A DNA stretch of 36,563 nucleotides from Gammaproteobacteria bacterium (GTDB lineage Bacteria; Pseudomonadota; Gammaproteobacteria; Xanthomonadales; Wenzhouxiangellaceae). Of this stretch, positions 13,806 through 26,896 are shown piece by piece. The stretch is from positions 1 through 36,563 of the forward strand of contig PWJA01000278.1 of assembly GCA_003560975.1 (NCBI GenBank), read 5' to 3'. The position numbers and the translations under genes were made by a program. Below the pieces are notes generated by a model. It searched no databases and had not been told where the DNA came from. It saw only the letters and a list, made by a program, of their open reading frames with translations. The first letter of the stretch is position 1; each line of letters begins with the position of its first letter.

Positions 13806-14384
13806 ATGGCTTTTTCCCTGCCCGAGCTGCCCTACGCCAAAAACGCGCTGGAGCCGCACATCTCCGCCGAAACTCTGGAATACCACTACGGCAAACACCA
13901 CAAGACCTACGTCGACAAGCTCAATGGCCTGGTCGAAGGCACCGACATGGCCGACAAGTCGCTGGAAGACATCATCCGCAACTCCAGCGGCGGCCTGTTC
14001 AACAACGCCGCCCAGGTCTGGAACCACAGCTTTTACTGGGAGTGCCTGTCGCCCAACGGCGGTGGCACGCCCACCGGCACGCTGGCGGACCTGATCCAGC
14101 GCGACTTCGGTTCGTTCGACCAGTTCGTCGAGAAGTTCAACGAATCCGCGGTCGGGAATTTCGGGTCCGGCTGGACCTGGCTGGTTCAGAACCCGGACGG
14201 CAAACTGGCCATCGTCAACACCGACGACGCCGAAACGCCGCTGACCGGCGAGGCCAAGCCGCTGTTGACCTGCGACGTGTGGGAGCACGCCTACTACGTC
14301 GACTACCGCAACGCCCGGCCGAAGTACCTGGAGGCCTTCTGGCAGCTGGTCAACTGGGACAACGTCGCCGCGCGCCTGAGCTGA
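13806..14384 (+). CDS. sodB: Iron superoxide dismutase
   Basis: This cytoplasmic enzyme dismutates superoxide. The 192-residue protein has all metal ligands of the Fe/Mn family: His in EYHYGKHHKTYV (near residue 27), His in VWNHSFYW, and Asp and His in DVWEHAYYVDYRN. The iron type is supported by GGLFNNAAQVWNH, in which the Gln two residues before the Trp-Asn-His is the iron-SOD second-sphere residue, and by overall likeness to E. coli SodB. A strong ribosome binding site, AAAGAGGAG, lies just before the ATG. A strong GC-rich hairpin follows 16 bases after the stop. Confidence 0.97.
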   Translation: MAFSLPELPYAKNALEPHISAETLEYHYGKHHKTYVDKLNGLVEGTDMADKSLEDIIRNSSGGLFNNAAQVWNHSFYWECLSPNGGGTPTGTLADLIQRDFGSFDQFVEKFNESAVGNFGSGWTWLVQNPDGKLAIVNTDDAETPLTGEAKPLLTCDVWEHAYYVDYRNARPKYLEAFWQLVNWDNVAARLS

Positions 14385-14400
14385 ACGGCGACCGATCTGC

Positions 14401-14430
14401 ATCACGGGCCGGCGCCGCCGGCCCCGTGAT
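14401..14430 (+). terminator. GC-rich hairpin after sodB
   Basis: A near-perfect inverted repeat with arms ATCACGGGCCGGC and GCCGGCCCCGTGAT (one bulged C) gives a 13-pair stem with a three-base loop. It starts 16 bases after the sodB stop. No T-run follows (CCCCCTACAA), so it may end transcription inefficiently or simply protect the 3' end. A TACAAT (-10-like) at 14436-14441 just downstream may belong to an argD promoter. Confidence 0.55.
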
Positions 14431-14470
14431 CCCCCTACAATAGCGAACTGGCACCGTCCGGCAGATTGCC

Positions 14471-15649
14471 ATGTCGCACCTGTTCAACACCTACGCACGC
14501 ATGCCCGTGACCCTGGTTCGGGGCGACGGGGCCTGGTTGTTCGATGACCAGGGCCGGCGCTACCTCGACGCCTTGAGCGGAATTGCCGTGTGCAGTCTGG
14601 GCCACGCCCATCCGCGCATCGCCGGCGTCATCGCCGACCAGGCCGCCACCCTGATCCACACCGCCAACATCGTCCACTTGCGCGAGCAGGAAGCACTGGC
14701 CGAACGCCTGTGGGAACTGAGCGGGCTGGAGCGGGTCTTTCTGGCCAACTCCGGCGCCGAGGCCATCGAATGCGCCCTGAAGCTGGCCCGCCGCCACGCC
14801 CACGCGCGCGCCATCGACCAGCCGGCGGTCCTGGTCGCCAGCGACAGCTTTCACGGCCGCACCCTGGCCGCCCTCAGCGCCTCGGGCAATGCGGCCATCC
14901 AGGACGGGTTCGGGCCGCTGGTTCCGGGCTTTGTTCGGGTCCCCTACGACGACGCCCAGGCCGCCGCCCAGGCCTTCGCCGACCATCCGGACATCGTTGC
15001 CGTCCTGGTCGAACCCATCCAGGGCGAAGGCGGTGTGCGCGTACCCGGGTCGGGGTACCTGGGCGCGCTTCGACAATTGTGCGATCAGCACCAGGCGCTG
15101 TTGATCCTCGACGAGATCCAGACCGGAATCGCCCGCACCGGACGCTGGTTCGCCTTTCAGCACGAGCCGGATCTTCGTCCCGACGTGGTCACCGTCGCCA
15201 AGGCGCTGGGCAACGGCATTCCCATCGGCGCCTGCCTGGCCACCGAAGCGGTCGCCGCGCTGCTCGCGCCCGGCTCGCACGGCACCACCTTCGGCGGCAA
15301 TCCCTTCGCCTGCCGCGTTGCCCTGGAGGTTCTGACGATCATGCAAGAAGAGCAGATCCCTGCCCGGGCCGCCCGGGCCGGCGAGCGCCTGCTCGGGGCC
15401 CTGAAAAAGCAGATTGGCGACCACCCACAGGTCGCCGACATCCGCGGGCGCGGACTCATGGTCGGGGTAGAACTCAGCGAGCCCTGTCCGGAACTGAAGG
15501 ACACGGCGATGAGCCGCGGCCTGATCATCAACGTCACCCGCGGCAACACCATCCGCCTGCTGCCGCCGCTGATCGTCGACGACGAACAGGTCGACCAGAT
15601 CGCCAGCATCGTCAGCGACGTGGTTCGCAACAAGTTCGCCCCAGGCTAG
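14471..15649 (+). CDS. argD: Acetylornithine aminotransferase
   Basis: This PLP-dependent class III aminotransferase interconverts N-acetylglutamate 5-semialdehyde and N-acetylornithine in arginine synthesis; many also act on succinyl-diaminopimelate semialdehyde in lysine synthesis. The 392-residue product has the ArgD-type start (LFNTYARMPVTLVRGDGAWL), GIAVCSLGHAHP, ANSGAEAIECALKLAR, SFHGRTLAAL, LILDEIQTGIARTG, and the PLP-binding Lys244 in VAKALGNGIPIGA. HGTTFGGNPFACR and RGLIINVTRGNTIRLLPPL complete the family pattern. It follows sodB after a hairpin and is convergent with purK, 16 bases away. No other arg genes are in the window. Confidence 0.93.
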   Translation: MSHLFNTYARMPVTLVRGDGAWLFDDQGRRYLDALSGIAVCSLGHAHPRIAGVIADQAATLIHTANIVHLREQEALAERLWELSGLERVFLANSGAEAIECALKLARRHAHARAIDQPAVLVASDSFHGRTLAALSASGNAAIQDGFGPLVPGFVRVPYDDAQAAAQAFADHPDIVAVLVEPIQGEGGVRVPGSGYLGALRQLCDQHQALLILDEIQTGIARTGRWFAFQHEPDLRPDVVTVAKALGNGIPIGACLATEAVAALLAPGSHGTTFGGNPFACRVALEVLTIMQEEQIPARAARAGERLLGALKKQIGDHPQVADIRGRGLMVGVELSEPCPELKDTAMSRGLIINVTRGNTIRLLPPLIVDDEQVDQIASIVSDVVRNKFAPG

Positions 15650-15665
15650 TGGGCCATACGGCTAA

Positions 15666-16796
15666 CTAGCCGCCCGTCTCCAGGTCGGTCCTGGCCAGCA
15701 GTTCGGCCGTATCCGCATCCAGCAGGGGGCGGATCCCGGCCAGAATCCGGCCCAGGGCCTCGCGGTCTTCGGCGACCACGGTGGCGTGTCCAACCTTGCG
15801 GCCCGGTCGCGGCGACTTGTGGTAATCGTGCCAGGCCAGCCCGGGCACGCCCAGCCAGGCGTTGCGGTCCGGCAGCGCCCCCAGCCAGTTCAGCATCAGC
15901 GAAGCGCCGCGCGGGCGCGTGCTGCCCAGCGGGAGATCGCAGACCGCACGCAGGTGATTTTCAAACTGCGAGGTCACCGCCCCCTCGATGGTCCAGTGGG
16001 CCGAGTTGTGCGGCCGCGGGGCAAACTCGTTGGCGATCAGACCGGCCTGGGTGGCGAACATTTCCAGGGTCAGGCAGCCCACGTAATCCAGTTCCTCGAG
16101 CAAACGCGTCAGCGCCTTCTCGGCGGCGGCCTGCAAAGCCGCCGGCGCATCGAGCATGGCTGCGGCCAGGCGCAGCACGCCGTTGCGATGAACCGTGAAG
16201 CTGATGGGGTAGAAGCGGATTTCGCCGTCAACGGCGCGCACGGCGGTCAGGGCGAACTCGTGGTCGAAGTCGATCCAGCCTTCGAGGATCAGCTCGCGGC
16301 CGCCCAGACGCTGCCAGGCCGGCTCCAGATCCTCGACCGAGGTGAGGACCTCCTGACCCTTGCCGTCATACCCCAGCCTGCGCGTCTTGAGAACCGCCGG
16401 CAGGCCGATCTTCTCGACCGCCGCGAGCAGGTCCGGGCGGCTGGAGACTTCGGCCACCGGTGCCACCGGAATGTCGAGACGCTCAAGCAGCTGCTTTTCG
16501 CTCAGCCGATCCTGGCCGGCCGCAAACGCCGCCGGCGGCGGGCGCACCGATGTCCGGTCGGCCAGATCGGCCAGAACCGCGGCCGGCACGTTCTCGAAAT
16601 CACAGGTGATCCGATCGCAAGCGGCCAGGGCCCGGCCGGCGGCGGCATCGTCCCAGGATCCGACGTGCAGCGTGCCCAGCGCTCCGGCGCAGGCGTCGGC
16701 GGACGGGTCCAGAAAGGAAAAACGCAGGCCCAGCGGGCCCCCGGCCTCGGCCATCATCCGCGCCAGCTGGCCGCCACCAAGGATGCCGACGTGCAC
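15666..16796 (-). CDS. purK: 5-(carboxyamino)imidazole ribonucleotide synthase
   Basis: PurK uses ATP and bicarbonate to carboxylate AIR, giving N5-CAIR in purine synthesis. The 376-residue ATP-grasp protein starts VGILGGGQLARMMAEAG and contains CDFENVPAA, SEKQLLERLDIPVAP, LPAVLKTRRLGYDGKGQ, the metal-binding GCLTLEMFAT and ANEFAPRPHNSAHWTIEGA, and HDYHKSPRPGRKVGHATV near the C-terminus. The start is taken as GTG at 16796, two bases after the purE stop (TGAACGTG), because this gives the standard N-terminus; the frame is open farther upstream but inside purE. purE and purK thus form a tight operon transcribed leftward. Confidence 0.96.
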   Translation of the reverse strand: MHVGILGGGQLARMMAEAGGPLGLRFSFLDPSADACAGALGTLHVGSWDDAAAGRALAACDRITCDFENVPAAVLADLADRTSVRPPPAAFAAGQDRLSEKQLLERLDIPVAPVAEVSSRPDLLAAVEKIGLPAVLKTRRLGYDGKGQEVLTSVEDLEPAWQRLGGRELILEGWIDFDHEFALTAVRAVDGEIRFYPISFTVHRNGVLRLAAAMLDAPAALQAAAEKALTRLLEELDYVGCLTLEMFATQAGLIANEFAPRPHNSAHWTIEGAVTSQFENHLRAVCDLPLGSTRPRGASLMLNWLGALPDRNAWLGVPGLAWHDYHKSPRPGRKVGHATVVAEDREALGRILAGIRPLLDADTAELLARTDLETGG

Positions 16797-16798
16797 GT

Positions 16799-17293
16799 TC
16801 AGCGACCCGGAATGTTGTTGGCCAGCACGGCCTCGGTCTGGCGCTTTCGCCAGGCCGAGTAGCGCTCGGCCAGGTCCGGATCGAATGCCGCCAGCATGGC
16901 CGCGGCCAGAAGGCCGGCGTTCCTGGCCCCGGCCTTGCCGATGGCCAGCGTGCCGACCGGGATGCCGGCCGGCATCTGGGCAATCGAGAGCAGCGAGTCC
17001 AGCCCGTTGAGGGTGCGCGACTGCACGGGAACCCCGAGCACCGGCAAGGTGGTCTTGCTGGCCACCATACCGGGAAGGTGGGCGGCCCCGCCGGCGCCGG
17101 CAATGATCACCTTCAGACCGCGTCCGGCGGCCGATTCGGCATAGGAAAACATCGCATCGGGCGTGCGATGGGCCGAAACGACCCGACATTCATGCGAAAC
17201 CGCCAGCTCCATGAGAATTTCGCTGGCCGGCCGCATCGTCTCCCAATCGCTTTGCGAACCCATGATGACGCCAACGCAAGGGGCCTTGTCCAT
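16799..17293 (-). CDS. purE: N5-CAIR mutase, catalytic subunit PurE
   Basis: PurE moves the carboxylate of N5-CAIR to form CAIR, following the PurK reaction. The 164-residue class I PurE has [14 protein letters not shown] at the N-terminus, [34 protein letters not shown], and [26 protein letters not shown]. The ATG at 17293 has GGAG about 8 bases upstream; the frame is open to 17398, but that extension is unlike PurE. It is followed directly by purK. It is divergent from the Trm112-like gene, with 128 bases between the starts. Confidence 0.97.
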
Positions 17294-17323
17294 GCCGTTA
17301 CTCCGCGCTCCAGTGAGCTGGCA

Positions 17324-17332
17324 ATGGTAGCA
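17324..17332 (-). promoter_or_regulatory. Extended -10 candidate for purEK
   Basis: On the minus strand TGCTACCAT forms an extended -10 element (TGn plus TACCAT, four of six matches), placing a start about 25 bases before the purE ATG. No clear -35 is seen. No obvious PurR palindrome is visible nearby. Confidence 0.35.
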
Positions 17333-17421
17333 GGGCTGGCCGGGCAGGAACATGTCCGCCTGTGTGCGCGGCGTCGAATCCTGACGCAACCCACACACCC
17401 GCCTCGGTTACACTACGGCCC

Positions 17422-17691
17422 ATGAACCTGCCCGACCATCTACTCGACATACTGTGCTGCCCGGTCAGCCATGAGCCGCTGCTTCCGCTCTCGCGCGCGA
17501 AGCTGAAAATACTCAACGAGCACATCGCCGCCGGAGAGATGGTCTACGTCGACAACGAACCGGTCGAAGCCGAACTCACCGGCGCCCTGATCACCCGCGA
17601 CAGCAAGGTGATCTACCCGATCGAAGACGGCATCCCCGTTCTGCTGTCGGAACGCGGCATCGGCACCACGCAGCTCAAGGAACCTCTGTAG
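17422..17691 (+). CDS. Trm112-like small protein
   Basis: This 89-residue protein belongs to the Trm112/YcaR family. Eukaryotic relatives activate methyltransferases; bacterial members are small, uncharacterised and often lie near lipid A or nucleotide-metabolism genes. The family pattern is visible: HLLDILCCPVSHEPLLPL at the start, a central insertion, and VIYPIEDGIPVLLSE near the end. The usual CP.C pair is reduced: CC-P-V-S replaces the second Cys, so zinc binding at this site is doubtful. The insertion between the motifs (about residues 27-58) is longer than in E. coli YcaR. ATG at 17422 fits the family start. It is divergent from purE and convergent with the photolyase gene. Confidence 0.8.
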   Translation: MNLPDHLLDILCCPVSHEPLLPLSRAKLKILNEHIAAGEMVYVDNEPVEAELTGALITRDSKVIYPIEDGIPVLLSERGIGTTQLKEPL

Positions 17692-17698
17692 CCCCACC

Positions 17699-19225
17699 TC
17701 AGAGGCGCTCGATCTCCGAGCGCACCAGATCGGCCCGTGCACGAACGTCCGCCAATCGATCCGGGTCCATGCGGTCGACGTTGCGGTACATCATCTTCAT
17801 GCGCGGATTGGACTCGAACCGGTCGCGATGCCGGACCAGAAAATCCCAGTACAGGGCGTTGAACGGACAGGCCGAATCGCCGGTCGTGTCGGCAACCTTG
17901 TATTCGCAGTGCTTGCAGTGGTCGCCCATGCGCTGGATGTATTTGCCGCTGGCGGCATACGGTTTCGAGGCCAGTAACCCGCCGTCGGCGTGCATGACCA
18001 TACCCAGCGTGTTGGGCAATTCCACCCAGTCGTAGGCGTCGGCGTAGACGGCCAGATACCATTCGCAGATCGCTTTCGGCACCACCCCGAGCAACAGGGC
18101 GAAGTTGCCGGTGACCATCAGCCGCTGGATGTGATGGGCGTAGGCGTTGCGCCGGGTCGCGTCGATGGCCTGGGCGAGGCAGCGCATCCGGGTCTTGCCG
18201 GTCCAGTACCAGCTCGGCAGCGGCTGCTGATTGTCGAGCTCATTGAGTTCCGCGTATTCGGGCATCTTCAGCCAGTACAGGCCGCGCACGAACTCGCGCC
18301 AGCCGATGATCTGGCGGATGAATCCTTCGACCGCGTTGAGCGGCGCCTTGCCGTCGCGCCAGGCCTGTTCGGCGGCCTCACAGACCTCCAGCGGCGACAA
18401 CAGGCCCAGGTTGAGACTGCTGGAGAGACGACTGTGAAACAGATAGTCCTCGTCGTCGGGCAAGGCATCCTGAAAGTCTCCGAACCAGGGCAAGCCGGTG
18501 CGAATGAAATGGGCCAGGCCGCGCCGCGCCTGCTCGCGGGTTACCGGAAAATCGAAGCCATCGAGCACGCCGAAAGCGCCGGGCTGCCCGTCCACCAGCT
18601 CCAGCACCTCTTCGGTGATCGGGTCCGGGGTAAAGCGCATCGGCTGAGCGGCAGGCGGCTCGCCCTTCCAGCGCTTGCGGTTGGCGGCGTCGAAATTCCA
18701 GCTGCCGCCTGCCGGCTGGTCCTGTTCCATCAACAAGCCGGTCCGGCGACGCATCTGGCGATAGAAAAACTCCATGCGCAGCTGCTTTCGCCCCGCCGCC
18801 CAGTTCTCGAACTCCTCCAGCGTGCTCAGGAAACGCTGATCCGGCAGCACCGTCACCGGAACGTTCAGGGCCTTCTCCCAGGCGCGTACCTCGGCCAGTA
18901 CCCGCCACTCGCCGGGCCAGCTGACGACCACCTCTTCAATCCGGGCCCGATCACAGGCCCGGTCGACCAGCTCGGTGAAGGTCCTTACCGGGCTGTCCGG
19001 GTCGAAGTGGTGGTAGTCCAGGCTCCAGCCGGCCGCGCGCAATTCGTCGGCAAAGTGACGCATGGCGGCGAAGATCAGGGCAATCTTCTTGGCGTGATGT
19101 GGAACGTAGCTGACTTCTTCATGCAGTTCCGCCATGACCAGACGATCGCGTTCCGGGTCCAGCGATTCCAGCACGGCATGATCCAGGTGGAGCTGGTCCC
19201 CGAATATCAGTCCGAGTCTGGCCAT
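17699..19225 (-). CDS. Iron-sulfur (6-4) photolyase / bacterial cryptochrome-photolyase
   Basis: This 508-residue flavoprotein belongs to the FeS-BCP (PhrB/CryB) class of the cryptochrome-photolyase family, whose studied members use blue light to repair (6-4) pyrimidine photoproducts. The N-terminal antenna-type domain (LGLIFGDQLHLDH) is followed by a helical FAD domain. The four cluster cysteines fall at 349, 437, 440 and 453 (MRCLAQ, CKHC, ACPF). From memory, Agrobacterium PhrB has them at 350, 438, 441 and 454, a constant offset of one. The active-site His pair (AHHIQRLMVTGNFALLLG, 364-365) is also conserved with the same offset. ATG at 19225 gives the family start. No light-response regulators are adjacent; it is divergent from ompW and convergent with the Trm112-like gene. 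Confidence 0.93.
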   Translation of the reverse strand: MARLGLIFGDQLHLDHAVLESLDPERDRLVMAELHEEVSYVPHHAKKIALIFAAMRHFADELRAAGWSLDYHHFDPDSPVRTFTELVDRACDRARIEEVVVSWPGEWRVLAEVRAWEKALNVPVTVLPDQRFLSTLEEFENWAAGRKQLRMEFFYRQMRRRTGLLMEQDQPAGGSWNFDAANRKRWKGEPPAAQPMRFTPDPITEEVLELVDGQPGAFGVLDGFDFPVTREQARRGLAHFIRTGLPWFGDFQDALPDDEDYLFHSRLSSSLNLGLLSPLEVCEAAEQAWRDGKAPLNAVEGFIRQIIGWREFVRGLYWLKMPEYAELNELDNQQPLPSWYWTGKTRMRCLAQAIDATRRNAYAHHIQRLMVTGNFALLLGVVPKAICEWYLAVYADAYDWVELPNTLGMVMHADGGLLASKPYAASGKYIQRMGDHCKHCEYKVADTTGDSACPFNALYWDFLVRHRDRFESNPRMKMMYRNVDRMDPDRLADVRARADLVRSEIERL

Positions 19226-19304
19226 GCCGTTTCCTTTCGAGTGCGGAGATTTTCAGAGGGTAGCAAGCCGGGTGCGGCAAAAACGTGCAGCCGGGGCCAG
19301 GTTT

Positions 19305-19318
19305 TTGATCGCGGTCAA
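19305..19318 (+). promoter_or_regulatory. FNR/Anr-type binding site upstream of ompW
   Basis: TTGATCGCGGTCAA matches the FNR/Anr consensus TTGAT-N4-ATCAA at nine of ten defined positions. Its centre is near 19311.5. A weak TAAGCT (-10-like) at 19340-19345 would give a start near 19352, placing the site at about -41, the class II activator position. ompW is FNR-controlled in enteric bacteria, which supports the assignment by analogy. Confidence 0.6.
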
Positions 19319-19393
19319 ATTATTCGCCGGGGACAGGCGTAAGCTGGCGCTAATACAACAACGTGTTCACACGGCCACAAGGAGAGAGCCATC

Positions 19394-20071
19394 ATGTTTC
19401 GCAAGTTAGCTATCGTCAGCGTTGTCTGCCTGTTTTCCGCCAACGTCATGGCCCAGGGTGCCGGAGACTGGATCGCTCGCGTCGGCCTGGGTCACGTCAA
19501 TCCGGATACGTCCAGCGGCAACCTTGCCGTCGCCGGCAGTGAGCTTCCCGGCTACCAGATCGACGTCGGCAGCAACACCCGCCCGATCGTCAACCTGACC
19601 TATTTCGCCACCGACCATATCGGTTTTGAAGTGCTGGCCGCCTGGCCGTTCGAGCACGACATCGACGGTGACGGCGTACTCGACGGGGCCGGCAAGCTGG
19701 GCGAAACCAAGCACCTGCCGCCAACGCTGAGCCTGCAGTATCACTTCATGCCTGGCGCTGCCTTCCGGCCGTATGCCGGCATCGGTCTGAACTACACCAC
19801 CTTCTTCAGCACGAGCACCACCGATACCCTGGACGGCGCTCTGGGCGGACCGTCGAGCATGTCGATCAAGGACTCCTGGGGCTTCGCACTGCAGGTCGGC
19901 GCGGATTTCGACATTACCGACACGCTGTTTCTGAACTTCGATCTGCGCTACATCGAAATCGAGGCAGACGCACGCATCCGCACGCAGACGGCCGCTGGAG
20001 AAGTCCGCAGCCAGATCAAGGCCGACATCGACCCGCTGGTGTTTTCGGCCGCCGTCGGCTTCCGCTTCTAA
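19394..20071 (+). CDS. ompW: OmpW family outer membrane protein
   Basis: OmpW proteins are small eight-stranded outer membrane barrels forming a narrow hydrophobic channel, often induced by oxygen limitation or stress. The 225-residue product has a clean signal peptide (MFRKLAIVSVVCLFSANVMA-Q), then GDWIARVGLGHVNPD, the family start. Alternating strands follow: PIVNLTYFATDHIGFEVLAAWPFEHDI, LPPTLSLQYHF, FRPYAGIGLNYTTFF, SWGFALQVGADFDI, LNFDLRYIEIE and a terminal Phe in VGFRF, required for barrel insertion. The ribosome binding site AAGGAGAG precedes ATG 19394. An FNR/Anr-like box lies upstream and a strong terminator 43 bases downstream, so it is a single-gene unit. Confidence 0.95.
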   Translation: MFRKLAIVSVVCLFSANVMAQGAGDWIARVGLGHVNPDTSSGNLAVAGSELPGYQIDVGSNTRPIVNLTYFATDHIGFEVLAAWPFEHDIDGDGVLDGAGKLGETKHLPPTLSLQYHFMPGAAFRPYAGIGLNYTTFFSTSTTDTLDGALGGPSSMSIKDSWGFALQVGADFDITDTLFLNFDLRYIEIEADARIRTQTAAGEVRSQIKADIDPLVFSAAVGFRF

Positions 20072-20114
20072 GCGACTGATCGAACGAAAAATTCAACAAA
20101 ACATCAAGCTCTAC

Positions 20115-20145
20115 GCCGTGCCCGCTTTGCGGGCACGGCTTTTTT
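20115..20145 (+). terminator. Intrinsic terminator of ompW
   Basis: GCCGTGCCCGC and GCGGGCACGGC form a perfect 11-pair stem with a TTT loop, followed by TTTTTT. It lies 43 bases after the ompW stop and cleanly isolates ompW from the acyltransferase gene. Confidence 0.95.
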
Positions 20146-20205
20146 CGTGCTTGACGAATCGGTTATAACTGTTGATCGTTCTCCGCATTCAGGCCTAGCC
20201 AGCTC

Positions 20206-21291
20206 ATGGGGCCAGCCACTCACTACCTGACCGTTGCAGAACCGTTCCTGATGTATCGGGGCGGCGAGCTGCCCGACGTGCGCATCGCCTGGGAGTCCTG
20301 GGGCGAACTCAACCCGCGCGCCGACAACGCGGTGCTGTTGTTTACCGGGCTTTCGCCAGACGCCCACGCCGCCTCGTCCAGCGCCGATCCGGAACCGGGC
20401 TGGTGGGAGGGCATGATCGGTCCCGGGAAACCGATCGATACCGATCGCTTTTTCGTGCTCTGCGTCAACTCCCTGGGCTCGTGCAAGGGATCGACCGGTC
20501 CGTCCAGCATCAACCCGGCCACGGGCCGGCCCTGGCGCCTGAAATTCCCCGAACTGGCCATCGAAGACATTGCCCGCGGTGCCCGACTGGTGGTCGAGCA
20601 CCTCAACATCGGCCGCCTGCATGCCATCATCGGTCCCTCCATGGGGGGATTTACCGCGCTGGCCTGGCTGAAACAGTTTCCCGGGACAACGGCCCGCCTC
20701 GGCCTGATCTCGAGCGCCTGCTCGGCCACGCCCTTCGCCATCGCCATTCGCTCGCTGCAGCGCGAAGCCATCGTGACCGACCGCAATTTTCGCAACGGCA
20801 CCTACAGCGAAGACGAGTGGCCCGAGGTCGGCATGCGTCTGGCCCGCAAGCTGGGCATGATTTCGTATCGCTCGGCCAACGAATGGCAGCGCCGGTTCGG
20901 CCGCTCGCGCCAGGACTACTTTCCCGCCACCCTGTTCGGCATGCGCTTTGAAGTCGAGTCCTACCTGGAAACCCACGCGCGCAAGTTCGTCGGTCGGTTT
21001 GATCCCTGCAGCTACCTGTACCTGTCGCGCGCCATGGACATGTTCGACGCCTGCGACAGCGACGAGACCCTGAAAAATCTGTTCCGGCGAAGCTTTACCG
21101 GGCATGCGCTGGTGCTGGGTGTGGACAGCGACATTCTCTTTCCCCTGCACCAGCAGCGCGACCTGGCCGGCGCGCTGGAATCCAGCGGCTCCGAGGTCAG
21201 CTTCCACGCCCTGCCCTCGATCCAGGGCCACGATGCCTTTCTGGTGGATTTCGACAGCTTCGGACCACCGATCCGCGACTGGCTGGGCTGA
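20206..21291 (+). CDS. MetX-family O-acyltransferase, serine O-succinyltransferase type
   Basis: MetX-fold alpha/beta hydrolases acylate the hydroxyl of homoserine (methionine route) or, in a Xanthomonas/Stenotrophomonas branch, succinylate L-serine (cysteine route). The 361-residue product carries the catalytic triad: Ser145 in GPSMGG, Asp in GVDSDILFP and His in QGHDAFLVDF. TGLSPDAHA, DPEPGWWE, GPGKPIDTDRFFVLCVNSLG and SLQREAI resemble, as I recall them, the Xanthomonas serine O-succinyltransferase more closely than classic MetXA. The ATG at 20206 fits the family start; a TATAAC (-10-like) lies at 20164-20169. No met or cys genes adjoin; tRNA-Leu follows. The family is certain; the serine/succinyl assignment rests on remembered similarity. 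Confidence 0.82.
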   Translation: MGPATHYLTVAEPFLMYRGGELPDVRIAWESWGELNPRADNAVLLFTGLSPDAHAASSSADPEPGWWEGMIGPGKPIDTDRFFVLCVNSLGSCKGSTGPSSINPATGRPWRLKFPELAIEDIARGARLVVEHLNIGRLHAIIGPSMGGFTALAWLKQFPGTTARLGLISSACSATPFAIAIRSLQREAIVTDRNFRNGTYSEDEWPEVGMRLARKLGMISYRSANEWQRRFGRSRQDYFPATLFGMRFEVESYLETHARKFVGRFDPCSYLYLSRAMDMFDACDSDETLKNLFRRSFTGHALVLGVDSDILFPLHQQRDLAGALESSGSEVSFHALPSIQGHDAFLVDFDSFGPPIRDWLG

Positions 21292-21361
21292 GCCGGGTCC
21301 GCCTGCGACTGCGAGGTTCGCTCGAGCCGACCCGGCCGGAGTCGGAAACTCGATTCAGGGC

Positions 21362-21390
21362 TTTACAGCGACCCCGTGCGCGCGGACAAT
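21362..21390 (+). promoter_or_regulatory. Sigma70-type promoter for tRNA-Leu
   Basis: TTTACA (21362-21367, five of six to TTGACA), a 17-base spacer, and GACAAT (21385-21390, four of six to TATAAT). The predicted start is near 21397, about 11 bases before the tRNA. Confidence 0.6.
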
Positions 21391-21407
21391 ATGGGGTCCT
21401 ATCCCCT

Positions 21408-21494
21408 GCCGGGGTGGCGGAACTGGTAGACGCGCCGGACTCAAAATCCGGTTCTGGCAACAGAGTGCGGGTTCGATTCCCGCCCCCGGCACCA
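21408..21494 (+). tRNA. tRNA-Leu (anticodon CAA)
   Basis: The acceptor arms GCCGGGG and CCCCGGC pair fully, followed by A and an encoded CCA. The anticodon loop is CTCAAAA (anticodon CAA, reading UUG), flanked by CCGGA/TCCGG. The long variable arm (TTCTGGCAACAGAGT) is the class II shape of leucine tRNAs, and the T-loop GTTCGATT is standard. The DNA changes character immediately downstream, and the 3' end appears to be duplicated near 23344-23364. Confidence 0.97.
21471..21494 (+). repeat. Left copy of tRNA-3'-end direct repeat (attachment-like)
   Basis: The T-arm and 3' end of tRNA-Leu (GTTCGATTCCCGCCCCC, then GGCACCA) recur in direct orientation at 23344-23364 with one substitution and the GGC missing. 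Integrases commonly recombine at this part of tRNA genes and leave such a flanking pair. Confidence 0.45.
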
Positions 21495-21758
21495 TTAAAT
21501 ATCCTTATTTATCAATAACTTATGGAGCTTATTGGCCGGCATCTTTCATCTTCTGCGTCGGCCGAATCGGCCTCACGGACAGGTCCTGCCCGGGAATCAC
21601 ATCGCTTCAATCAACACCTAAAGGGCACGGCGCTGCAGTACAACAGACCCGATCATTCCTGAAAGCAGGATCAGCGCAAGCAATCCCGGCGGATTCAATT
21701 CGATGAGCACTACCAGCAAACCAGGCCACCATCGGCAGCCGGGCTTGTGGGTCTGGGT
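21495..21758. other. Low-G+C stretch after tRNA-Leu; possible membrane-peptide frame
   Basis: No gene with a normal start is seen. The first 40 bases are A/T-rich (ATTAAATATCCTTATTTATC). On the minus strand, the frame of the repeat-protein fragment continues past its amber stop for 46 codons to a TAG at 21618. This extension has two hydrophobic stretches (WWPGLLVVLIELNPPG and LLALILLSGMIGSVVL) and ends QRRAL. It could be a lost membrane anchor or a tiny hydrophobic peptide from a GTG or TTG start. Confidence 0.4.
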
Positions 21759-22121
21759 CTACTGAAAGCGGCTCCTAAAAATCTCGTCCGGCCGATCATC
21801 CACCCTGAACGTCACGTTCACCGTACAGTTCGCGGTTACCCTGGTGGTCGTGAACGTCAAACCACTCAGGCTACCCGCCCCACAGGTATCAAATGTGACC
21901 TGGTTGACGGGATATCCGCGCGCTGGCTGGATCTGGATAGTAGCCGGCTCGTTCTCGACCACACGCTCAGATTCTGATTCGGCAGACACTGATCCGCCCT
22001 CGCCTCCGACCTGGGCAACCACCAGGAAGGTATCCGCATACACAGCCTGCAGCGTGACAGTGCTGGCTGGCATGTAGACCGTCGTCTCGGCAGCAAGGAT
22101 ATCTTCAGACCGGCCTTGCAA
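21759..22121 (-). pseudogene. 3' fragment of a secreted repeat protein
   Basis: The minus-strand frame encodes the tail of a large extracellular protein built of short beta-rich repeats of the InlB B-repeat-like type. TVTLQAVYAD looks like the end of one repeat. VVAQVGGEGGSVS, a GYPVNQVTFDTCGAGSLSG segment and TANCTVNVTF make a complete repeat with a conserved Cys pair. The protein ends EIFRSRFQ, a short tail I associate with secreted proteins of Wenzhouxiangella-like bacteria. The frame opens only at a TTG directly after a stop, without signal peptide or ribosome binding site, so the 5' part is lost and this is probably not expressed. The junction near 22115-22121 marks a deletion or insertion boundary inside the accessory stretch. 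Confidence 0.65.
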
Positions 22122-22201
22122 CGCTCAATGAGGCCGCTGCCGGACGCGGGGTAGGTGGTTTCGGGAAGTCGGCAATTGGGGCGCGCAGGCGGGCACGGTA
22201 T

Positions 22202-22222
22202 CTGATATCGCCCCGATATCAG
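22202..22222. repeat. Perfect inverted repeat
   Basis: CTGATATCG and CGATATCAG are separated by CCC: a perfect 9-base palindrome with a three-base spacer. The symmetric form and the A/T-rich core suggest a protein-binding site (operator or recombination site) rather than a terminator, as no T-run follows. Its user is unknown. Confidence 0.55.
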
Positions 22223-22258
22223 CGGCTCGCTGTGCTGAGGGTGGGCTTGTCCAACTTG

Positions 22259-22289
22259 GGATAAGGTCGCGGCTGCGCGCGACCTATCC
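22259..22289. terminator. Hairpin downstream of hicB
   Basis: GGAT-A-AGGTCGCG and CGCGACCT-ATCC form a 12-pair stem with one bulged A and a six-base loop. It begins 15 bases beyond the hicB stop, where a terminator of the leftward hicAB transcript is expected. However, the T-rich flank (TTGTTTG) is on the plus-strand side, so its direction is ambiguous. Confidence 0.4.
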
Positions 22290-22303
22290 TTGTTTGTTCG
22301 GCA

Positions 22304-22636
22304 TCAGAGGGCAACACGTTGCGCGAGGGCCTCTTGGGCCAGCGTGTTTATGCTTTTGCCCTCCGCCTGAGCGGCTATGGCGAGCCTCTCGTGAAGTTCT
22401 GGAGGAATTCGAAGATTGAACTTCCCGGAGTAACTCCGCCGGGGTTCAATACCCTTCTCTTTGCAGACCTCAAGGAACACCGTCAAGGATTTCTTGAACT
22501 CTGTTCTGAGTTCCTTCGGGGTCTTGCCGTAGAAGTCGGCTCCGCCAGTAAGACCGAGAATCTCCCCCCGGAACATATCAATCTCCGGGTCGTACTCAAT
22601 CTTTGCGTTGTATCCGTCAACCGTCATCACGTTCAT
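22304..22636 (-). CDS. hicB: HicB family antitoxin
   Basis: HicB neutralises the HicA mRNA interferase and represses the operon. The 110-residue protein has the family's two parts: an N-terminal degenerate RNase-H-like fold (YNAKIEYDPEIDMFRGEILGL, then ADFYGKTPKELRTEFKKSL) and a C-terminal ribbon-helix-helix DNA-binding segment (KFNLRIPPELHERLAIAAQA). The RHH class of HicB binds palindromes at its own promoter. ATG 22636 overlaps the hicA stop by four bases. The order is toxin first, usual for hicAB. Its location in the tRNA-Leu-bounded accessory stretch fits a mobile addiction or defence-linked module. Confidence 0.93.
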   Translation of the reverse strand: MNVMTVDGYNAKIEYDPEIDMFRGEILGLTGGADFYGKTPKELRTEFKKSLTVFLEVCKEKGIEPRRSYSGKFNLRIPPELHERLAIAAQAEGKSINTLAQEALAQRVAL

Positions 22637-22887
22637 GGCTTCACTCCGTGTTGTTCAAGCCACCTCTTCACTGACACCACTGCACCCTTGTCTGTCTTTG
22701 GCGACGGATGCGGTCTGTGGAAGACGCGGACTTCCTGGAACAGAACGATTGCGACTCGGCTACCTTCGCGTTCGGTGACTTCCGCGCCGAGACCAATCAG
22801 TAGCGCTTCTATGTCCTTCCAAGCGATATTCGCGCTGGTCGGGCGGGCAAAGACTGCTTCGAGTGTCTTCCGATGGGCACGCTTCAT
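22633..22887 (-). CDS. hicA: HicA family mRNA interferase toxin
   Basis: HicA is a small double-stranded-RNA-binding-fold toxin that cleaves mRNA. The 84-residue protein shows the family layout: RKTLEAVFARP, a helix with DIEALLIGLGAEV, EREGSRVAIVLF, then the catalytic-His motif VFHRPHPSPKTDKGAV, and a final helix VKRWLEQHGVKP. The catalytic His and downstream residues are intact, so it should be active. ATG 22887 begins the standard N-terminus (MKRAHRKTLEAV). The 3' end overlaps hicB by four bases. The upstream DNA holds direct repeats that may be the autoregulatory site. Confidence 0.93.
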   Translation of the reverse strand: MKRAHRKTLEAVFARPTSANIAWKDIEALLIGLGAEVTEREGSRVAIVLFQEVRVFHRPHPSPKTDKGAVVSVKRWLEQHGVKP

Positions 22888-22893
22888 GTAACG

Positions 22894-22918
22894 ATGGTAC
22901 TGCAGGATGGTACCGTAC
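22894..22918 (-). promoter_or_regulatory. Repeats in the hicAB promoter region
   Basis: ATGGTAC occurs at 22894-22900 and again at 22907-22913, separated by TGCAGG, and is followed by CGTAC; the palindrome GGTACC lies within. They end 7 bases upstream of the hicA ATG. Such spacing (13 bases) fits a site for the HicB ribbon-helix-helix dimer pair, which is inference. Confidence 0.4.
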
Positions 22919-23271
22919 GCAACACGGATGGATTCTGATGTCTAACGGCAGAACTGACCGACGCGGGCGGCCAGTGATGTCCGATTCGAAAACTGGCATC
23001 GCCCGGGCCAGTGACCTTGAGGGGGAGCAGTCCATGCGGCCCAGACGCCCCATCCAGGCCAATCCAAAAAGCTTGCCTGGTGCGGGCTTTTGGGTTTACG
23101 CGAAAGCGCGCGCCCCTGCGAAGCTCTCAATTAACCAGCGCAAGGCCAAGGCTTTCCCCCTGAGCCGATATGTGGCTTTATTCTTGAGTGGACCCCAAGA
23201 GATTTTTATTTGTTAGCCTGCGAGTTGAAAGGGAATCGAACCCACAACCGGTTCCTAGCCACGGTTTTTTT

Positions 23272-23290
23272 GGGGGCACTTGAGGGGGCA
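23272..23290 (+). repeat. GGGGGCA direct repeats, 12-base period
   Basis: TTTTTTTGGGGGCACTTGA is followed by GGGGGCAT: two GGGGGCA units exactly 12 bases apart (23272-23278 and 23284-23290). Similar G-rich tandem units flank attachment sites of tRNA-targeting tyrosine integrases as I recall them. Confidence 0.4.
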
Positions 23291-23343
23291 TAAAACAGAA
23301 CGTTAAGCAGGAAATCATATATAAATCAGATTTTTACGACACC

Positions 23344-23364
23344 GTTCGATCCCCGCCCCCACCA
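23344..23364 (+). repeat. Right copy of tRNA-3'-end direct repeat (attachment-like)
   Basis: GTTCGATCCCCGCCCCC followed by ACCA reproduces the 3' end of tRNA-Leu (21471-21494) with one base change and loss of GGC. It lacks the rest of a tRNA and sits directly before the conserved nspC gene, where the right end of an integrated element would lie. Confidence 0.45.
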
Positions 23365-23373
23365 TCCTGAAAC

Positions 23374-24540
23374 TCAGGACAGTCTTCCCCTGTAGTCCTG
23401 GTAATCGAACTGGCGGATCACGCGCAGGGTGTCGGTTTCGCTGTTCCAGATCGCCAGCGCAGGCAGGCGCACCCCGTTGAAGGTGGTGGTCTTGACCATC
23501 GAATAATGGGCCTGGTCCAGGAAGGCGACGCGCGTGCCGATTTCCGGGGCATCGGCAAAGGCGTAGCGTCCGATCACATCGCCCGCCAGACAGCTCGGGC
23601 CGCCGAGACGGACCCGGGTTTGACCGCCCTCGTTGAGCAGCGCAGGGCGGTAAGGCGCTTCGAGCACGTCCGGCATGTGGCAGGTGGCGGAGACGTCCAG
23701 GACCGCATTCAGGCCGTCGTTTTCCACGAGATCCAGCACTTCGCCGACCAGGATGCCGGCATCCAGCGCGACCGCCTCGCCGGGTTCCAGGTAGCAGTGC
23801 AGGCCGGTTTCGGCGTTCACGCGCTGGAGGAAAGCGATCAGCCCCGCGCGATCGTAGTCGCTGCGGGTGATATGGTGGCCGCCGCCGAAATTGATCCACT
23901 GCAGCTGCGGCGCCAGCTCGCGGATGCGGGGGGCGATGTGATTCCAGATCGCAAGCAGCGGAGCCAGATCCTGCTCGCAGAGCGTATGCATGTGCAGTCC
24001 GTCCACGCCTTGCAGCGCCGCCGCATCGATGTGTTCCAGCGGTGTTCCAAGCCGGGATCCGGGGGCTGCGGCATCGTACTTGGGGTCGTCGCCCACGGCC
24101 AGACCGGGATTGAAGCGCAGGCCGACGCGGACGGCTTTGCCGCTCCCCCGGATCCGGGGCAGAAAACGGTCCTTCGCGGCCGCTGTATTGAACACGATCT
24201 GATCCGACAGCCGGATGATCTCGTCCATCTCGTCGACCTTGTAGCCGGGCGAGAAGGTCTCGACGAGGCCACCGTACTGTTCGCGCCCCAGCCGAGCTTC
24301 CCACAGCCCCGAGGCGCAGACGCCCGCCAGGTAGCGACGGACCAGGGGCGCAAGTTCCCACATCGAAAACGCCTTGAGCGCGCAGAGTACGGTGGCGCCG
24401 GATCGCGCCTGGACATCCGCGAGGATGCGCAGATTGGCTTCCAGCCTTGTTTCATCCACCACGAAGCAAGGCGAGGGAACGCGGTTGAGATCAAAGCGAC
24501 GAAACGCGCCCGGATCTCCCGCGAAGGTCTGCATTGCCAT
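23374..24540 (-). CDS. nspC: Carboxynorspermidine/carboxyspermidine decarboxylase
   Basis: NspC is an alanine-racemase-fold PLP decarboxylase that removes the carboxyl group of carboxyspermidine or carboxynorspermidine, the last step of the aspartate-semialdehyde-dependent polyamine route. The 388-residue protein has NRVPSPCFVVDETRLEANL, the PLP Lys near residue 56 in LCALKAFSMWE, HMHTLCEQ, INFGGGHHITR, YLEPGEAVALDAG and CHMPDVLEAPYRP with the catalytic Cys. All are characteristic of NspC rather than lysine or diaminopimelate decarboxylases. ATG 24540 overlaps the upstream dehydrogenase stop (TGATG), so the two are cotranscribed and probably coupled. The 3' end abuts the accessory relic. Confidence 0.93.
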   Translation of the reverse strand: MAMQTFAGDPGAFRRFDLNRVPSPCFVVDETRLEANLRILADVQARSGATVLCALKAFSMWELAPLVRRYLAGVCASGLWEARLGREQYGGLVETFSPGYKVDEMDEIIRLSDQIVFNTAAAKDRFLPRIRGSGKAVRVGLRFNPGLAVGDDPKYDAAAPGSRLGTPLEHIDAAALQGVDGLHMHTLCEQDLAPLLAIWNHIAPRIRELAPQLQWINFGGGHHITRSDYDRAGLIAFLQRVNAETGLHCYLEPGEAVALDAGILVGEVLDLVENDGLNAVLDVSATCHMPDVLEAPYRPALLNEGGQTRVRLGGPSCLAGDVIGRYAFADAPEIGTRVAFLDQAHYSMVKTTTFNGVRLPALAIWNSETDTLRVIRQFDYQDYRGRLS

Positions 24541-25763
24541 CAGAAATCAACCGGGGACGACAGCTCGATGATCGACCACGGCAGGCCGTGCCGGTTCAGC
24601 AGTTTCATGAACGGGTCCGGGTCCAGTTGCTCGGTGTTGAAGACCCCCGCCCCCGCCCAGGTGCCATTGAGCATCAGGGCCGCGCCGATGAAGGCCGGCA
24701 CGCCGGTCGTGTAGCTGACCGCCTGCGATCCCACCTCGCGATAGCATTCCTCGTGGTCGCAGATGTTGTTGATGTAGTAGGTCTTTTCGCCCGACCCGTC
24801 CTGAGCAGGTCCGGTGATGATGTCGCCGATATTGGTCTTGCCCCTTGTGCGCTCGCCCAGATCCCCGGGATTCGGCAACACGGCTTTGAGAAACTGCAGC
24901 GGAATGATCCGGTGGCCCTCGTAGTCCACCGGCTCGATCGAGGTCATGCCCACGTTCTGCAGCACGGTGACGTGGTTGATGTAGGCATCGCCGAAAGTCA
25001 TCCAGAAGCGGGCGCGCTCGATTTCGGGGAAATGGGTGACCAGGCTCTCCAGTTCCTCGTGATACATCAGGTACATGTTTTTCGGGCCGACCTGATCGAA
25101 GTTGAATTCAACCCGGGTGGACATGGCCGGACTGGTAACCCAGCCGCCGTTCTCCCAGTGCCGGACTTTGGCGGTGACCTCGCGAATATTGATTTCGGGG
25201 TTGAAGTTGGTGGCGAAGGGATGGCCGTGATCGCCCCCATTGCAGTCGAGAATGTCGATCAGGCGGATGCCCGAGAGGTAATGCTTGCGCACATAGGCTG
25301 CGAAAATGCTGGTCACGCCGGGATCGAACCCGACGCCAAGCGTGGCCATCAGTCCGGCATCCACGAAGCGCTCATGCAGCTTCCACTGATGGGAATACTC
25401 GAATTTCGCTTCCTCGGGTGGCTCGTAGTTGGCGGTGTCCAGGTAATCCACACCCGTGCGCAAGCAAGCCTCCATCAGCGCCAGATCCTGGTAGGGCAGA
25501 GCCAGATTGACCAGCAGCGCGGGCTTGATCCTCTCGATCAGGGCAACGGTCTGGTCCACATCGTCGGCGTCGATCCGATAGGTCTCGATCTCGACGCCGG
25601 TGCGGCGCTGGACCTCCTTTGCGATCGCATCGCATTTGGCCAGCGTGCGGCTGGCGACCGCAAGCCGCCCCGGAAACAGCTCGGGGTTCATCGCCATCTT
25701 GTGCAGCGTGACCGAGGCCACGCCGCCCGCTCCGATCACCAGAATGTCTTTGTTGTCAGTCAT
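24540..25763 (-). CDS. Carboxynorspermidine dehydrogenase (saccharopine dehydrogenase family)
   Basis: This enzyme condenses aspartate semialdehyde with putrescine or diaminopropane and reduces the imine with NADPH, giving the substrate of NspC. The 407-residue protein starts with a Rossmann nucleotide site (ILVIGAGGVASVTLHKMA). It carries LLVNLALPYQDLALMEACL, YLDTANYEPPEEAKFEYSHQWK, LGVGFDPGVTSIFAAYV and DCNGGDHGHPFATNFNPEIN, all typical of this branch (LYS1-like, CANSDH) and distinct from true saccharopine dehydrogenases. ATG 25763 has GGGAG 8 bases upstream; the longer open frame (to 25907) lacks a comparable site. It forms a two-gene operon with nspC. Whether the product is spermidine or norspermidine depends on the diamine available and cannot be told from this window. 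Confidence 0.9.
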   Translation of the reverse strand: MTDNKDILVIGAGGVASVTLHKMAMNPELFPGRLAVASRTLAKCDAIAKEVQRRTGVEIETYRIDADDVDQTVALIERIKPALLVNLALPYQDLALMEACLRTGVDYLDTANYEPPEEAKFEYSHQWKLHERFVDAGLMATLGVGFDPGVTSIFAAYVRKHYLSGIRLIDILDCNGGDHGHPFATNFNPEINIREVTAKVRHWENGGWVTSPAMSTRVEFNFDQVGPKNMYLMYHEELESLVTHFPEIERARFWMTFGDAYINHVTVLQNVGMTSIEPVDYEGHRIIPLQFLKAVLPNPGDLGERTRGKTNIGDIITGPAQDGSGEKTYYINNICDHEECYREVGSQAVSYTTGVPAFIGAALMLNGTWAGAGVFNTEQLDPDPFMKLLNRHGLPWSIIELSSPVDF

Positions 25764-26075
25764 TGCTGTGCTCCCGCTCGTCGTCAGTGTAGCCGCCAAT
25801 CGCCCGGCCGCAATCATCTCACCGATCATCCGATCCCGCTCGATGACCACCGGCTCCCATGCGGCACCGGGCTGGTTCGCCGCCAGCTGGACGCGCGGTG
25901 GCGCCAACAGGCAACAGCGTATTTCGGCAGCGCTGCCGCTTCATGCTACAGTCAAATCGTCATTGACCCGGCCGCAACGGTCGGGGCCGCGAAGCGAGGA
26001 CATTTGCGGACATGCGCCGCAGATGCCGGGCACTGTCGCGTACCCCGGCCTGGCGCGGAACGGACAGGAGTCGAA
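25764..26075. other. Divergent promoter region with palindrome
   Basis: This 312-base gap separates the leftward polyamine genes from the rightward DUF2845 gene. The minus-strand frame of the dehydrogenase stays open to 25907 but without ribosome binding site or family similarity. A perfect 14-base palindrome, CGGCAGCGCTGCCG, lies at 25925-25938, followed 8 bases later by TACAGT (-10-like, 25947-25952). No further gene is seen. Confidence 0.4.
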
Positions 26076-26360
26076 ATGAAACACCTGCTGATCGCCCTTG
26101 TCATCGTCCTGAGCTTTCCTGCGTTCGGGCAGTCGGTTCGGTGTGGTCAATCGCACCGCTTTGGCACCGAACTCATCATGATCGGGGATTCGGAGCGCCG
26201 CGTTCACCAGGTCGCGGGTCGACCGGACCTCGAGCGCCGCCTGGAAAACCCACAAGGCGGCGCAGCCGGCTTCCGGCTGGACTATTACCAACACGGTCAA
26301 ACCGTTCAGATCTATGTTCAGGCCGGAGTCGTCACCCGCATCTGCCGCGTTCGGGATTGA
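26076..26360 (+). CDS. DUF2845 small secreted protein
   Basis: This 94-residue protein has a signal peptide (KHLLIALVIVLSFPAFGQS) and a short mature domain starting VRCGQSHRFGTELIMIGDSE. Continuing through VHQVAGRPD, YYQHGQTVQIYVQAG and ending VVTRICRVRD, it fits the DUF2845 family (Cys near the start; G(D/E)S...V...G.P; Y...G..V.....G.V..I). Members are periplasmic or lipoprotein-like with unknown function. Two Cys residues (CGQS and ICRV) could form a disulfide linking the ends. A clear AGGAG lies 5 bases before ATG 26076. It stands alone between the polyamine operon and a convergent VOC gene. Confidence 0.75.
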   Translation: MKHLLIALVIVLSFPAFGQSVRCGQSHRFGTELIMIGDSERRVHQVAGRPDLERRLENPQGGAAGFRLDYYQHGQTVQIYVQAGVVTRICRVRD

Positions 26361-26410
26361 CCCAGACCCGGCGGCAGGGAGCCTGATCGAACCGGCACGG
26401 CAGGCGCCCT

Positions 26411-26854
26411 TCAGGGATAGGCTTCAAGATCGCTTTCGAACAACATCCGGATATCGCGGAAGGCCTTGAACTCCAGGCAGTTCCCGCTCGGGTCGGTGAC
26501 GAACAGGGTCGCCTGCTCGCCCTTGCGGCCCTCGAAGCGCACGCAGGGCTCGATCAGGAAATTCACCCCTGCCGCCCGCAGGCGATCGGCGAGCGTTGCA
26601 AAACAGTCCCAGTCGAGAATCGGACCGAAATGGCGGGCCGGCACCTCGTGACCGTCAACGGGATTCGTTCGCTCTTGCGTACGATCCGATTCATCGGTCA
26701 GGTGCAGAACCAGCTGGTGTCCGAAAAAGTCCAGGTCGATCCAGCGATCGGATCGTCTGCCCGTGGCGCAACCGAGAATCTCGGTATAAAAATCACGGGT
26801 TTGTTCCAGATCCTTGACCCCAATGGCCAGGTGAAAACGCGGGTAGTCGCTCAT
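26411..26854 (-). CDS. VOC family (glyoxalase/dioxygenase-like) protein
   Basis: This 147-residue protein has the vicinal-oxygen-chelate fold: HLAIGVKDLEQTRDFYTEILG at the N-terminus (metal-ligand His), GHQLVLHLTD in the middle, RHFGPILDW starting the second module, and FVTDPSGNCLEFKAF with a C-terminal metal-ligand Glu. The specific FGHQLVLH and RHFG.ILD features fit the 'glyoxalase-like' group annotated as possible dioxygenases, of unknown substrate. ATG 26854 is used because the domain begins directly after it; the ATG at 26872 adds six residues. Neither has a good ribosome binding site. It is convergent with the DUF2845 gene, and the SUMF1 gene lies upstream on the same strand, 42 bases away. 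Confidence 0.85.
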   Translation of the reverse strand: MSDYPRFHLAIGVKDLEQTRDFYTEILGCATGRRSDRWIDLDFFGHQLVLHLTDESDRTQERTNPVDGHEVPARHFGPILDWDCFATLADRLRAAGVNFLIEPCVRFEGRKGEQATLFVTDPSGNCLEFKAFRDIRMLFESDLEAYP

Positions 26855-26896
26855 GGGCGGAAGGCAGTTCATCCAATCGGAAACCAGGACGGTATT

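Follow-up and report, generated by a model that had tools for sequence, protein, structure and literature searches.

Among the MetX acyltransferases, group G3a holds both homoserine O-succinyltransferases (HSTs) and serine O-succinyltransferases (SSTs), according to PMC9506716. The SST residues are listed there, numbered on G3a enzymes, as Gly-Leu-Ser-Ala/Pro at 52-55, Ser-Leu/Met (not Ser-Tyr) at 149-150 and Asp360 in X. campestris numbering, together with Arg183 in F. aurantia numbering. That paper, relaying Bastard 2017 and citing Oda 2013 for key residues, gives them as required for serine O-succinyltransferase activity and describes an O-succinylserine route in fungi and animals. Xanthomonas hortorum has a metXS gene, which is named homoserine O-succinyltransferase in a gene table of PMC9040725. 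The search found no title on the cysteine route of the source organism or on cysE loss in its order, which is weak evidence of absence because subscription journals were thinly covered. DcsE is known from the structure 3vvl, which Foldseek titles as L-serine-O-acetyltransferase of the D-cycloserine pathway, and from its G52A-P55G mutant, 3vvm. By our alignments, the two substitutions convert TGLSPDAHA of DcsE to TALSGDAHA, so that the mutant carries ALSG, the homoserine-type motif. The specificity of this mutant is reportedly moved towards homoserine.

The gene described here lies in a window of 36,563 nucleotides, the window being the whole stretch of DNA that was analysed. The source organism is close to Wenzhouxiangella, as seen from the 78-89% identity of five homologs of that genus to the window protein (L076, L077, L079, L080 and L082); the homolog of Xanthomonas sp. 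XNM01 is 57% identical, both values being taken from the best 80 of 568 loci. The reading frame is complete, from an ATG preceded by 10 open-frame codons to a stop codon ending at 21291, and it is a real gene. With a probability of about 0.8, its product is a MetX-G3 serine O-acyltransferase, most probably a succinyltransferase, which serves cysteine synthesis and replaces an absent CysE. Enzymes of this kind (MetX-G3) are already known, and the window gene adds a member. The segments that an earlier note on this DNA had quoted from the protein (TGLSPDAHA, DPEPGWWE, GPGKPIDTDR, CVNSLGSCKGSTGP and GPSMGG) are all found in it. Coordinates are given in Table 1.

Table 1. Positions in the window of the gene, its diagnostic and catalytic codons and the flanking elements.
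Feature	Position	Strand	Remark
MetX-fold serine O-acyltransferase gene (probable serine O-succinyltransferase)	20206..21291	+	361 aa; homology, tree, structure match
GLSP, serine-specificity motif	20347..20358	+	residues 48-51, equal to 52-55 of Xanthomonas sp. XNM01
Nucleophile elbow GPSMGG	20632..20649	+	residues 143-148 with Ser145; Ser-Met agrees with the SST list
Arg182, clade-specific	20749..20751	+	aligned to R183 of order homolog L072
Catalytic Asp309 codon	21130..21132	+	homolog alignments
Catalytic His342 codon	21229..21231	+	homolog alignments
Terminator-like hairpin	20115..20139	+	11 pairs, then T6; between upstream ompW gene and window gene
tRNA-Leu(CAA)	21408..21494	+	downstream of window gene; no sulfur gene directly linked

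The best NCBIfam model for the window protein is NF001209 (PRK00175, homoserine O-acetyltransferase), whose cut-off it passes (415 bits, cut-off 331), so annotation as a homoserine acetyltransferase, which the earlier note called wrong if its serine reading holds, is to be expected. The protein stays under the cut-offs of TIGR01392 (MetX homoserine O-acetyltransferase, 359 bits, cut-off 500) and of NF047916 (MetX_succinyl, homoserine O-succinyltransferase, 288 bits, cut-off 560). Among solved chains, DcsE is the first match by sequence (3vvl, 395 bits), followed by its mutant 3vvm, and homoserine acetyltransferase structures appear from 262 bits down, with 2b61 as the best of them. With these scores to PRK00175 and DcsE (415 and 395 bits), the resemblance to the MetX family is beyond chance. 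The predicted model, built from a 23-row alignment (mean pLDDT 92.7, pTM 0.91), also has 3vvl and 3vvm as top Foldseek matches, 3vvl with a TM of 0.95 and 54% identity. The protein has the alpha/beta-hydrolase MetX fold and a Ser-Asp-His triad formed by Ser145, Asp309 and His342, and it keeps TGLSPDAHA, with the serine-type GLSP.

A maximum-likelihood tree of 83 rows (82 distinct), whose bootstrap was not fully settled, was built with the window protein, homologs, four PDB references, paralogs and 12 proteins above the NF047916 cut-off, which are named HSTs by this model and not by assay. The place of the validated X. campestris and F. aurantia sequences, which are absent from the tree, was taken by homologs, that of Xanthomonas sp. 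XNM01 among them. A split with 100/100 support separates 61 rows, with the window protein, DcsE and the Xanthomonas/Lysobacter homologs, from 22 rows, with three homoserine acetyltransferases (HATs), the 12 HSTs, other paralogs and the second MetX of the source genome (entered twice); many branches inside the 61-row clade have weak support. The window protein lies outside the rows of homoserine acetyl- and succinyltransferases (the latter assigned by model); a place among them is what the earlier note had named as telling against its proposal. Gly48 occurs in 60 of the 61 clade rows, the remaining one having a gap, and is absent from the 22 others; Ala takes its place in all 15 HAT and HST rows. 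Arg182 is also found in 60 of the 61 rows, and this position is Asn in 12/12 HST rows and Asn, Asn and Gln in the three HATs. Pro51 is less constant (54/61, with Ala in five rows, Val in one and a gap in one), and the other side of the split has Gly or Ser. Over 129 loci, the window included, a set in which near-relatives are over-represented and some organisms are counted twice, no locus departs from Gly48 or Ser50, and 127 keep Arg182.

GLSP and Ser-Met, listed for the SSTs of MetX-G3, are both present in the window protein. Its Ser145-Met146 correspond to positions 149-150 of Xanthomonas sp. XNM01, and GLSP (52-55) and Ser-Met (149-150) of XNM01 agree with the X. campestris numbering quoted in PMC9506716. 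Arg182 would correspond to Arg183 of the F. aurantia SST, judging from R183 of L072, and Asp360 of the list is perhaps D348 (D355 in XNM01), a correspondence drawn with the X. campestris sequence outside the alignment. The earlier note had presented GPSMGG at the nucleophile elbow as a departure from GNSMGG or GGSMGG. The motif is there but is ordinary in the clade, since the residue preceding the nucleophile is Pro in 84 of the 129 homologs (Asn in 27, Ala in 10, Cys in 7, Ser in 1); GGSMGG proves to be the homoserine-side form, with Gly in 12/12 HST rows, 3/3 HAT rows and the second MetX of the source genome. In a quick tree, DcsE 3vvl and another actinobacterial homolog, L124 of Marinitenerispora sediminis, fall in an 11-row set together with Lysobacteraceae homologs (98 SH-aLRT), which suggests a transfer into actinobacteria as the source of the D-cycloserine enzyme.

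The source genome (3.08 Mb, 286 contigs, 99.16% complete) has no cysE (TIGR01172) above the cut-off, as the earlier note had predicted, and the sole match, of 22 bits, lies inside the gene of GlmU (573 bits to TIGR01173). One other MetX homolog is present, on contig C42 and 34% identical to the window protein. The start of this metX2 overlaps by 4 bp the end of metY (684 bits to the OAH/OAS sulfhydrylase model), and its product, without GLSP and without Arg182, falls on the homoserine side of the tree, so the genome has no second MetX nearer to the serine enzymes, the finding that the note had named as telling against its proposal. The overlap of metX2 with metY indicates that homoserine activation is covered elsewhere than by the window gene; no MetA was found in this genome. 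A CysK (L008, 401 bits) and a PRK10717-type cysteine synthase (L007, 498 bits) are both above their cut-offs, and so is a cystathionine gamma-synthase/lyase-like protein (L012, 541 bits, cut-off 513), while a Cds1-like protein (557 bits, cut-off 600) and a CBS-like protein (L006, two CBS domains, 415 bits, cut-off 510) stay under theirs. The genome thus has sulfhydrylases without CysE, plus parts for reverse transsulfuration.

The window gene is probably transcribed on its own. The 3-kb region has four terminator-like sites, against a mean of 2.3 in shuffles, and the three other than the hairpin of Table 1 have 5-6 pairs. The gene neighbourhood was rejected as a functional clue, with no recognised sulfur gene in the 45 largest neighbour clusters of 130 loci (window included); these clusters contain ompW-like genes in Wenzhouxiangella and, outside this genus, what we take to be cytochrome-maturation-like and EngA-like genes. 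Positions 14000-28000, which surround the gene, showed no biosynthetic cluster. Other genes of the window are an overlapping HicAB toxin-antitoxin pair (22304-22636 and 22633-22887, minus strand; HicB 82 bits, HicA_toxin 37 bits), a deoxyribodipyrimidine photolyase-related protein (17699-19225, minus strand; DPRP, 259 bits), and adjacent Orn_DAP_Arg_deC decarboxylase and saccharopine-dehydrogenase-like genes (23374-24540 and 24540-25907, minus strand), which probably serve carboxynorspermidine synthesis.

In the order, 140 of 151 genomes carry the gene, counted at 50% identity or more among the matches listed, and four of them (G017, G061, G130, G132) were counted on partial matches. Of the 11 non-carriers, four (G019, G102, G128, G143) are without a match and one (G073) shows a 42% paralog; in the other six (G006, G045, G054, G055, G122, G148) the best E is 1e-20 to 1e-35, outside the matches listed, and a gene fragment is possible there. 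cysE passes its cut-off, a strict one that 8/14 named control genomes pass, in 1/140 carriers vs 2/11 non-carriers among the matches listed (p 0.014 in a Fisher test that, as in all such tests here, for order and class, treats genomes as independent and ignores phylogeny); these genomes are G066 (carrier, 7% contaminated), G054 and G019. At 150 bits or more the counts are 2/140 vs 3/11 (p 0.0027), with G132 (carrier) and G122 (non-carrier) added, and 8/11 non-carriers are without such a match as well. At 80 bits or more the contrast in the order is weaker, with 12/140 vs 3/11 (p 0.08). Seven weak matches were scanned, of about 152 bits in G122 and G132 and of 92-112 bits in G016, G099, G124, G126 and G134, and all are under both the cysE and the EpsC cut-offs. 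The last five (L051-L055), whose best model is cysE or EpsC, occur in carriers of the serine-type MetX. Such weak cysE/EpsC-like matches may be polysaccharide-associated acetyltransferases, and a role as serine acetyltransferase is possible for these five. G054, with no serine-type MetX among the matches listed (best E 3.5e-24), is a case in favour of the replacement of CysE: it has cysK beside cysE (229.5 bits) at 992841-994284 of its 1.18-Mb contig C2.

MetA, a homoserine acyltransferase unrelated to MetX, is found in 22 of the 151 order genomes. Nineteen of these are carriers, 18 of them without a 150-bit cysE match, and with MetA present the window-type gene is hardly needed for homoserine in these 18. 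In 14 other order carriers, G065, G020 and G072 among them, the serine-type MetX is the sole MetX match and MetA is absent; G065 is of the same family as the source genome and 99% complete, and a dual serine/homoserine role is possible in these 14. The PRK10717-type cysteine synthase is not supported as a general obligate partner (a Cys1a analogue), being found in 33/151 genomes at E <=1e-130, a limit that may miss weaker members, vs CysK over its cut-off in 128/151; G094, G099, G124 and G129 have the PRK10717 type and no CysK match at E <=1e-100. Three genomes of one family of the order (G066, G030, G011) have a MetX of the other clade joined in one frame to a homoserine-dehydrogenase-like half (L171-L173, 722-759 residues; in L171, Pfam Homoserine_dh 120 bits and an NAD-binding domain 57 bits), and these proteins are, as read from their sequence, MetX-homoserine dehydrogenase fusions. 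A MetX fusion in L174 was rejected, the frame being read by us as an artefact.

The class was sampled with 185 genomes of 177 genera, of which 21 are carriers, the minimum being set at 276 bits and 48% identity; the matches of G166 and G275 are partial, and G183, which has cysE and a broken match of 46%, was entered as a non-carrier. cysE is above its cut-off in 6/21 carriers (G234, G270, G275, G296, G304, G305) vs 119/164 non-carriers (p 1.2e-4), and in 6/18 carriers when the order itself is left out (p 2.0e-3). At the cut-off, carriers therefore have cysE less often than non-carriers, in the order as well as in the class.

The window enzyme very probably acylates serine and not homoserine, and this part of the earlier proposal stands on the residues, the tree and the DcsE match. 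A homoserine O-acetyl- or O-succinyltransferase for methionine, as in the automatic annotation, or a bifunctional serine/homoserine enzyme, would agree with the NF001209 score over the cut-off, with the homoserine succinyltransferases that G3a is said in PMC9506716 to include, and with the 14 order genomes where no other homoserine acyltransferase was detected. We consider it quite improbable, since tree placement and residues oppose it, the metX2-metY pair of the source genome fills the homoserine role, and the window-type gene is kept beside MetA, without a 150-bit cysE match, in 18 order genomes. For the serine-acting enzyme, the donor is likely to be succinyl-CoA, a reading that follows group membership; the succinyl donor of the earlier note is favoured, with acetyl as a possibility. 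An enzyme like DcsE, with acetyl-CoA as donor and O-acetylserine as intermediate, would have the same substrate and pathway role, and it would suit the title of the top structural match (L-serine-O-acetyltransferase, 3vvl) and the canonical CysK of the source genome. GLSP, Ser-Met and Arg182 are common to DcsE, so these residues cannot separate acetyl from succinyl. An acyl-donor signature was sought in the clade, HST and HAT columns and rejected as not convincing: F280 is the only column uniting the clade and HST rows against the three HATs, and there is no clear succinyl signature. The same residues are, however, those listed for serine O-succinyltransferase activity in group G3a in PMC9506716, and the acetyl donor is regarded as unlikely.

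We hold with good confidence that the window enzyme feeds cysteine synthesis in place of CysE. Against a serine-cysteine role stand the NF001209 name, the cysE of 6/21 class carriers, and L006 and L012, which could yield cysteine from homocysteine. A serine-acting enzyme whose O-acylserine is used otherwise, most cysteine coming by reverse transsulfuration (CBS and CGL), would accommodate this CBS-like and CGS/CGL-like pair, and DcsE itself is, by its PDB title, part of D-cycloserine synthesis. Yet, with no cysE in the genome, the two cysteine synthases would then have no substrate, no biosynthetic cluster is seen in 14000-28000 and cysE is rare among carriers, which leaves this the least probable of the alternatives.

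In the preferred serine-to-cysteine reading, the acyl group, most probably succinyl, would move from its CoA ester onto Ser145, with Asp309 and His342 as relay, and would be passed on to the hydroxyl of L-serine, a ping-pong mechanism being suggested by the family. GLSP and Arg182 would form a pocket suited to serine and not to homoserine. The O-acylserine and sulfide would then give cysteine by L008 (CysK type) or L007 (PRK10717 type), so that the window enzyme would replace CysE, with methionine served by the C42 MetX and MetY. The sequence class, the residues, the phylogeny and the gene content are direct results, from which substrate, donor and pathway flux are deduced. A broader reading is that a MetX-type serine O-acyltransferase displaced CysE as the cysteine entry in nearly the whole order and in many other gammaproteobacterial families, with the O-succinylserine route ordinary there and rare reversions in which the gene was lost and cysK-cysE gained; we give this somewhat less than an even chance, because the cysE contrast weakens at 80 bits.

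The homoserine O-acetyltransferase name of the current family model would hide the first cysteine step and invent a methionine step in metabolic models, and the misnaming touches a large order, with Xanthomonas among its members. Should succinyl-CoA be the donor, the cysteine supply would depend on the TCA cycle and not on acetyl-CoA, and the complex of CysE with CysK would be missing, along with its feedback control. The breadth of the cysE pattern and the persistence of the misnaming in a current model take the case beyond routine.

Among the known systems, DcsE (3vvl, 3vvm) is nested in the same clade and shares with the window protein, besides the 54% identity and the TM of 0.95, GLSP, Arg182 and the catalytic triad; it differs in being an antibiotic pathway enzyme, in its titled acetyl donor and in the Ala preceding the nucleophile, which is Pro in the window protein, and no cluster of that kind is seen by the window gene. 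The homoserine MetX enzymes (2b61, 2pl5, 5w8o and the NF047916 members) have the same fold, triad and architecture, whereas they carry Ala at position 48, are without Arg182 and stand on the opposite side of the 100/100 split. In PMC9506716, the fungal and animal Cys2 enzymes are described with the same proposed reaction and the same residue set, a likeness by description, and belong to a different subgroup, MetX-G3c. The SSTs of X. campestris and F. aurantia, of group G3a, have the key residues listed in that paper, and these, where placeable, are found in the window protein. These two enzymes are validated, whereas the window member is predicted and comes from a different family, that of Wenzhouxiangella, with the XNM01 proxy at 57% identity.
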